Part shown: positions 4,586-12,479 of the stretch, in pieces
Position numbering within the stretch: the stretch's first letter is position 1
How the letters are laid out: each line of letters starts with the position of its first letter
Source of the DNA: Streptosporangiales bacterium
GTDB lineage: Bacteria > Actinomycetota > Actinomycetes > Streptosporangiales > WHST01
NCBI GenBank assembly: GCA_009379955.1
Contig: WHST01000054.1
Coordinates: forward strand, 1-40,176
Length of the DNA stretch: 40,176 nt
Reading direction: 5' to 3'
Made by a program: the position numbers and the translations under genes
The notes under the pieces: model-generated
The model's input: the letters and a program-made list of their open reading frames with translations, nothing else
Databases searched by the model: none
What the model was told of the DNA's origin: nothing

Positions 4586-4603
4586 AGGCGACTCCGCCTT
4601 CCT

Positions 4604-4746
4604 CTACGAGCCGCCTACCGGGTGAGCTGACGGGTTCGGGCTGGGAAGACGCCCGCGACGCGCGGACGCGTCGTTAACCCCATGGGGGAGGGTGGTTCCC
4701 CGGCTCCATCGTCGACCTCTGTTGGGGGCGTCGACGACGAACTCGG
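4604..4746 (-). ncRNA. ydaO-type cyclic di-AMP riboswitch
   Basis: Read leftward, the leader of the NlpC/P60 gene carries the hallmark blocks of the ydaO/yuaA class in order: GCCGAGTC, then GGAGCCGGGGAACCAC, then GGGTTAA, then CAGCCCGAACCCGTCAGCTC followed by ACCCGGTAGGC. The outer stem can close between CGAGT near the 5' edge and GCTCG near the 3' edge. It ends about 20 nt before the start codon, so ligand binding could act through the RBS or by early termination. In actinobacteria this class is usually an off switch for cell-wall hydrolase genes when c-di-AMP is high (established knowledge). The boundaries are approximate. Confidence 0.88.
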
Positions 4747-10836: not shown

Positions 10837-11469
10837 GTGGCCACCACCTCCGCACCGCGCAGGGCTCCTGCGCACTCGTCCCACCGACCCAACACGGTCA
10901 GCGTGGGCACCATCGTCTGGCTCGCGTCGGAGCTGATGTTCTTCGCGGCACTGTTCGCGATGTACTTCACGATCCGCTCGGTCAACCTCAGCCAGGGCAA
11001 CGAGTGGCCGCCGATCCATCTCGACCTCCCCTACGCAGCCGTCAACACGCTGATCCTGGTGCTCTCCTCGGTGACCTGCCAGGCGGGCGTCTTCGCCGCG
11101 GAGAAGGGCAACGTCCGCGGCCTGCGGTTCTGGTTCCTCGTCACTCTCGCCATGGGGTTCGTGTTCGACGCCGGTCAGGCATACGAGTACACCAACCTCA
11201 TCCTCGAGCAGGGCCTCACGTTCGGTGCGAGCGACCCGGCGGTGGGTGCGTACGCCTCGGTCTTCTACCTCACCACCGGCTTCCACGGGCTGCACGTCTT
11301 CGGCGGTCTCGTCGCCTTCGTGTTCATGCTGGGCCGCACCTACGCGGCCAAACGCTTCACGCACGAGCAGGCCGTGAGCGCGATCGTCGTGTCCTACTAC
11401 TGGCACTTCGTCGACGTCGTGTGGATCGGGCTGTTCGCCACCATCTACCTGCTCCCCCTCATCCAGTGA
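10837..11469 (+). CDS. ctaE: Cytochrome c oxidase subunit III
   Basis: The 210-residue product is the integral-membrane subunit III of the aa3 oxidase. It contains five hydrophobic segments and the family sequence [17 protein letters not shown] at its start, [10 protein letters not shown], and a C-terminal [14 protein letters not shown]. Subunit III stabilises the catalytic subunit I and lines the oxygen path. The open frame extends far upstream, but GTG 10837 gives the expected N-terminus and length. It heads the rightward ctaE-qcrCAB cluster and is divergent from the receiver-protein/trpD pair. Confidence 0.93.
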
Positions 11470-11475
11470 CACCCC

Positions 11476-11637
11476 AGGAGGCTGGTGTGAAACGTTGCTC
11501 TGCTACGCGGCGCCCAGGACGGCCATTGGCGGCGTTGTCGGAGCTCGCAAGTACGCCCAGTACGAGCTCGTCCTCCGCCACCGCAACTGACCGCCCTGAG
11601 CGCCGCTCGCGACGAGCACGCTTCACACCAACCTCCT
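11476..11637. repeat. 162-bp imperfect palindrome (giant hairpin or MITE-like element)
   Basis: The ends AGGAGGCTGGTGTGAA (11476-11491) and TTCACACCAACCTCCT (11622-11637) are complementary at 15 of 16 positions. Pairing continues inward with few mismatches and single-base bulges: CGTTGCTC with GAGCACG, GCGGCGCCCAGGACGG with CCGCCCTGAGCGCCGC, and GGCGG with CCGCC. It closes on GAGCTC (11541-11546 with 11564-11569) around a short loop. Nearly the whole ctaE-qcrC intergenic space is used. It may be a mobile miniature element or an RNA-processing or attenuation hairpin. Confidence 0.75.
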
Positions 11638-11678
11638 AGCGCGTGAGGACGGCACCCGTGACGACGAGGAAGCGAGCG

Positions 11679-12479
11679 GTGACCACTCGCACCGGATGGC
11701 GGCGGCGGCCACTGTCGCGCTACGTGCTGCTGCTGATCGCGCTCGTGGCGGTGGGCGGCTTCTACGCGAGCGTCGACGAGACGCCGGCGAAGCAGGCCGC
11801 GGCCGCGGAGACCCCGAGCAAGGAGCAGATCGCGCAGGGCAAGGCGCTCTTCCAGACCAGCTGCGCCACCTGCCACGGCCTCAGCGGTCAGGGCACGGAG
11901 ACCGGCCCGAACCTCACCGGCGTCGGCGCGGCGGCCGTCGACTTCCAGGTCGGCACCGGCCGCATGCCGCTCGCCGCCCCCGGCCCGCAGGCGCCCCGCA
12001 AGGAGCCCCGCTTCACCCAGGCGCAGATCGACGCGATGGCGGCGTACGTCCAGTCGCTGTCCCCCGGCCCGGAGATCCCCGAGGGCGTCGACGAACGCTA
12101 CGACGAGGCCGACCTCGCCCTCGGCGGCGAGCTGTTCCGCGCCAACTGCGCGCAGTGCCACAACTTCGCCGGCTCGGGCGGGGCGCTGACCAACGGCAAG
12201 TCCGCGCCGTCGCTCATGGGAGTGCAGCCCAAGCACATCTACGAGGCGATGGAGACCGGCCCGGAGAACATGCCGGTCTTCGGGGAGCGCACCCTCACCC
12301 CCGACGAGAAGCTCGCGGTCATCAAGTACATCAAGGCGATCGAGGAGGAGCCCAACCCAGGCGGGGCCGGGCTCGGCCGGATCGGGCCGGTCAGCGAGGG
12401 CCTGATCATCTGGCTGCTCGGGATCGGGCTGTGCATCGCCGGCGCGATGTGGATCACAGCCAAGAAGAAGACGGACTGA
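11679..12479 (+). CDS. qcrC: Dihaem cytochrome c subunit of the bcc complex
   Basis: QcrC carries electrons from the Rieske protein to the CuA site of the oxidase and replaces a soluble cytochrome c. The 266-residue protein has an N-terminal membrane anchor (about residues 15-31), two class I haem sites (C62-x2-C65-H66 in SCATCHG, and C157-x2-C160-H161 in NCAQCHN) and a C-terminal membrane helix (GLIIWLLGIGLCIAGAMW). Upstream GTGs at 11643 and 11658 are possible starts. GTG 11679 is chosen because GAGGAAG lies 7-8 bp before it, while 11643 follows the hairpin without an RBS. qcrA follows after 1 bp. Confidence 0.94.
   Translation: MTTRTGWRRRPLSRYVLLLIALVAVGGFYASVDETPAKQAAAAETPSKEQIAQGKALFQTSCATCHGLSGQGTETGPNLTGVGAAAVDFQVGTGRMPLAAPGPQAPRKEPRFTQAQIDAMAAYVQSLSPGPEIPEGVDERYDEADLALGGELFRANCAQCHNFAGSGGALTNGKSAPSLMGVQPKHIYEAMETGPENMPVFGERTLTPDEKLAVIKYIKAIEEEPNPGGAGLGRIGPVSEGLIIWLLGIGLCIAGAMWITAKKKTD

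Follow-up and report, generated by a model that had tools for sequence, protein, structure and literature searches.

Between ctaE and qcrC, a stretch of 40,176 nucleotides from a Streptosporangiales bacterium (GCA_009379955.1, contig WHST01000054.1, positions 1 to 40,176; here, the window) carries a giant hairpin, and the question is whether this hairpin is a mobile element or an RNA structure that serves the operon. Very probably it is a MITE of a superfamily widespread in its bacterial class, in which the members have a structured core of some 110 bp in common and differ in the transposase family to which their terminal inverted repeats belong. We describe here the element, its core and ends, the site in which it lies, and its relation to known systems.

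The element and its copies

A sequence-only reading of the window had reported inverted repeats at the two ends of 11476 to 11637 (162 bp), and the end match of 15 of 16 positions was recovered (AGGAGGCTGGTGTGAA, 11476 to 11491, against the reverse complement of AGGAGGTTGGTGTGAA, 11637 to 11622). The repeat stands as reported; the element proper was refined to 11477 to 11636 (160 bp), because other copies have TA on both flanks. A repeat search placed the arms at 11469 to 11495 and 11618 to 11644, with 81% complementarity over 27 nt. RNA folding of 11470 to 11680 reproduced the reported near-complete self-pairing as one near-continuous stem spanning the element, at −101 kcal/mol compared to a mean of −84.3 kcal/mol (standard deviation, 4.7; z, −3.56) for dinucleotide shuffles, none of 200 of which folded as low. 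As reported, GAGCTC pairs at the apex and an AGGAGG lies inside the left arm. The reported spacing holds too: the ctaE stop (11469) precedes the element by 6 nt, and the qcrC start, GTG 11679, follows it after about 41 nt. The upstream flank is the conserved part and stop of ctaE (10936 to 11469, forward strand), encoding cytochrome c oxidase subunit III, and downstream lies qcrC (11679 to 12479, forward strand), encoding the diheme cytochrome c subunit of the bcc complex, with a start that aligns with those of relatives and a second in-frame GTG at 11643.

The element contains no gene of its own, and the open reading frame list holds only frames that read through it, e.g., 11004 to 11639. Its terminal inverted repeats are of the IS1182 type and lie at 11477 to 11494 (GGAGGCTGGTGTGAAACG, forward strand) and 11619 to 11636 (GGAGGTTGGTGTGAAGCG on the reverse strand). 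Between them, at 11502 to 11610 (forward strand), is a core of about 109 bp that recurs elsewhere flanked by ends of the IS5 type, the IS630 type, or other types. The target-site duplication is imperfect, with CA on the left (11475 to 11476), where most copies have TA, and TA on the right (11637 to 11638), followed by the G of a CTAG target; one flank has probably changed since insertion. The hairpin has no match in Rfam above the gathering score. The only Rfam match in the window is a c-di-AMP (ydaO/yuaA) riboswitch (RF00379, 64 bits) at 4597 to 4740 on the reverse strand.

The source assembly is 6.6 Mb long, in 225 contigs that break at repeats. With the window copy as the query, 23 matches were found in this genome, and a probe for a second family (family B; the window copy belongs to family A) gave 28; about 20 related copies lie at unrelated sites. 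Near-full-length matches to the window copy are on contigs C168 (95%), C160 (89%), and C167 (71%, a longer copy), and many other copies match query positions 33 to 141 only, at 90 to 94%. The flanks differ between copies, and nearly every complete copy reads cTA, element, TAg, i.e., a TA duplication within CTAG. The earlier suggestion of a MITE-like element is thus borne out by the multiple copies, terminal inverted repeats, TA duplication, and lack of a gene, and further by an empty site in relatives and ends resembling those of a known insertion sequence family.

Several copies show features of their own. Mini elements reduced nearly to the ends, with no core, are present in family A (L017, C64:36798-36859), in family B (L061, C20:133-192), and on plasmids (L105 and L109); they are deletion products or possible core acceptors. 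Five copies (L002, at 1666 to 1796, and L017, L018, L020, and L022) adjoin a repeated TAGTAGTACTTTGTTATGTCGAG exactly at the CTAG end, and the contigs stop shortly past this repeat, which may be a further mobile element with MITE ends as its target. In three copies (L012, C167:5516-5732, and L013 and L014), short inserts with CTGCCTCCGGCGG in them break the sequence; they look like members of a second small repeat family nested within the hairpin family. The flanks of L004, L005, and L007 indicate insertion at a CTAG overlapping an apparent TAG stop codon; because the element begins with G, the stop is re-created by the TA duplication, which may explain why copies right behind genes are tolerated.

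One core between different ends

A covariance model built from 19 cores and run on 297 genomes of the class detected the core in 71 of them, representing at least 21 of 115 genera, with often at least 12 matches per core-positive genome. The queries used found no copies in phage records or viral contigs, and there is thus no sign of phage carriage.

In an alignment of 38 diverse cores, 89.6% of cells pair, compared to 73.9% when shuffled, and 20 of 30 pairs have changed on both sides. The covariation score is 0.362, compared to 0.117 (standard deviation, 0.009) for shuffled and at most 0.083 for slid versions, with a structure derived from the same alignment that was scored, which favors it. 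Palindrome correction by template switching during replication is an established process, and covariation is alike in the core and the arms; the complementarity of the arms could therefore reflect correction of quasi-palindromes around a core with no function of its own. This account is compatible with a MITE, and we regard it as a serious possibility, somewhat short of an even chance. Correction alone, however, would erase mismatches, whereas the section between the outer and apical stems, GCGTTGTCG opposite TCCTCCGCC, stays mismatched and is nearly invariant in the 38 cores. We read the mismatched center as a part probably under selection, since quasi-palindrome correction would remove its mismatches. 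More tentatively, and with rather less confidence, the core may be a functional structured module that persists across genera by moving between transposase systems (IS1182, IS5, and IS630 ends), with selection on the folded single-stranded RNA or DNA and with action independent of any one transposase.

Which strand would be folded was approached in two ways. Among co-directional copies, the core is oriented with transcription in 18 and against it in 6 (P = 0.02, with crude gene calls). G-U outnumbers A-C among mismatches by 39 to 15 in the arms and 49 to 12 in the core, which points to folding of the complementary strand. The two counts favor opposite strands; both are exploratory, the sequences are not independent, and no conclusion is drawn.

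The ends around this core are of distinct types: GGAGGYTGGTGTGARRCG in family A, which includes the window copy, GGGYGTGTCTCCWWAYG in family B, and GTGTCCTGCGYC in family C. An A copy and a B copy from the same genome are identical at 104 of 109 core positions, and their arms match at 6 of 26 and 10 of 27 positions, i.e., at the level of chance, with sharp junctions at symmetric places on both arms. Among 30 loci of the class-wide set, at least 6 different-looking end types surround one core, and Streptomyces plasmids carry the core with further end types. On sequence comparison, the interior is a widely shared core with exchanged ends, which goes beyond what the earlier reader could see.

Three of the end types resemble those of insertion sequences, with best matches of 15/18 (A to IS1182), 16/18 (B to IS5), and 16/18 (C to IS630); cross-matches between end types and other families reach at most 9/18, no different from shuffles. 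The family C ends match IS630-family elements of the class (L138, L136, and L135) at 15 to 16 of 18 positions and at all of the first 12. The family B match is to an IS5-family element of Arthrobacter plasmid pDCT5, the one element on which the IS5 assignment rests, which is TA flanked and has two ends identical to each other over 18 nt. For family A, the match is to the ends of IS1182-family elements on Rhodococcus plasmids (TA followed by GATGGCTGGTGT or by GGTGGCTGGTGT), at 14 to 15 of 18 positions, and more distant IS1182 elements from Streptomyces, Gordonia, and Arthrobacter plasmids start with CTAGAAG or CTAGGAG. In the matched insertion sequences, a transposase is enclosed by repeats on both sides, at TA/CTAG. 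Because the IS5 and IS1182 elements were located by end sequence, their end similarity comes partly from selection; the same does not hold for the finding that the matches delimit genuine elements with a transposase and a repeat on each side.

All of the matching autonomous elements (IS1182, IS5, and IS630) come from other genomes. In the fragmented source assembly, profile searches found no intact partner transposase. For an IS5-type partner, PF01609 gave two matches, neither with matching ends, and PF13359 gave none. As an IS630-type candidate, PF13358 gave a single interrupted gene near a contig end (L113, C143:14879-15268), the sole IS630-type transposase found in this genome, and its ends do not match. 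Plasmid searches with Streptomyces-type ends alone yielded further MITEs and no autonomous element. The only match to the family A end in a scan of the genome collection was another MITE that has these ends, in Myxococcales MAG YF1.bin66 (L145 to L148), which belongs to another phylum; that MITE has IS1182-type ends (TAGGAGGCTGGTGTGAAACG) and an unrelated interior, and family A ends are therefore not confined to elements with the core.

Alternatively, the hairpins could form one ordinary MITE family in which the ends have merely drifted and the transposase family is unchanged, and within the IS5-like group the ends do grade into each other (GGGYGTGTCTCC, GGGCCTGTCTTTCGG, and GGGTCTTTCGTTTGG), with both arms changing together. 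Drift is nevertheless very unlikely to account for cores that are 95% identical between A and B next to arms at chance and a sharp, symmetric junction, or for three end types that match three transposase families at 15 to 16 of 18 positions and do not match one another. We favor a superfamily with IS1182 ends (as in the window copy), IS5 ends, IS630 ends, and several unassigned ends, with the transposase that fits each end type presumably acting on it in trans. Ends would have been exchanged repeatedly in this lineage while the core stayed, most simply when hairpins recombine, or a template switch occurs between them, at symmetric positions along the stem; the conserved core would be kept by selection.

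The site between ctaE and qcrC

In the 29 relatives compared, including both other genomes of the same genus, the hairpin does not occur in the gap between ctaE and qcrC. From the ctaE stop to the qcrC start, the distance is 14 to 17 nt in 23 of these and 43 nt in one; in the remaining five, the script did not resolve qcrC, and the sequence itself does not differ from that of neighbors with a gap of 17 nt. In the window, the aligned qcrC start lies 209 nt after the ctaE stop and the first in-frame GTG lies at 173 nt. Without the element, the flanks amount to about 46 nt, longer than the gap in relatives, and the join at the empty site is therefore not base exact.

The sequence-only reading had alternatively proposed an RNA that governs the proportion of oxidase subunit III to bcc complex, and a cis-acting attenuator, processing, or stability hairpin of this kind could draw on the strong transcript stem 6 nt behind the ctaE stop, the covarying pairs, and the orientation bias of co-directional copies; it is scarcely credible given a site that is empty in all 29 relatives, where no conserved operon position of the hairpin was found, and the occurrence of the same sequence at some 20 unrelated places in the genome. 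The MITE reading instead has a gene-free, nonautonomous element that would have inserted at a CTAG/TA site. The insertion splits genes that are 14 to 17 nt apart in relatives and puts a strong hairpin into the transcript, and a side effect on ctaE-qcrC expression, through uncoupling of translation or altered stability, is possible.

Comparison with known systems

REP and BIME sequences are extragenic palindromes present in many copies. The hairpin family shares these properties but differs in its length of 160 bp, its defined terminal repeats, and its TA duplications. IS1182, IS5 (DUF4096 plus DDE_Tnp_1), and IS630/Tc1-mariner elements share with it the terminal repeats and the CTAG/TA target; they are autonomous, whereas the hairpin element has no transposase and only the ends in common. 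For the IS630 family, insertion at TA and duplication of the TA are documented (PMC2170065), and the same paper cites a preference of IS630 for CTAG. TIMEs, miniature elements derived from Tn3 that make mosaic transposons, are likewise nonautonomous and modular, with ends and interior that assort (PMC4133298); they keep one Tn3-type end and vary the interior, whereas in the hairpin family it is the ends that vary around a constant interior.

The closest likeness is to bacterial MITEs, which are short, gene free, multicopy, and hairpin forming, have terminal inverted repeats and a target duplication, and are moved in trans; the text of a review of them makes no mention of actinobacteria (PMC10969869). 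Bacterial MITEs usually pair one family with one transposase family, whereas here one core has the ends of at least three. Neither the letters of the core nor end-switching MITEs were found in the open-access literature, and a prior description elsewhere, e.g., in subscription literature or ISfinder, is possible. MITEs are a known kind of element; what is new is that ends of different transposase families are exchanged around a conserved core. The usual view of a MITE is of a dead end, derived from and bound to a single insertion sequence; a core that occurs with ends from three transposase families unrelated to each other, all using the same kind of target (CTAG/TA), suggests that miniature elements can outlive their partners by switching between them. 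The core with its varied ends is a natural experiment on end exchange, and its conserved mismatched center makes a possible hidden function directly testable. Present in multiple copies in many genera, including Streptomyces, such intergenic hairpins could be mistaken for terminators or regulatory RNAs.
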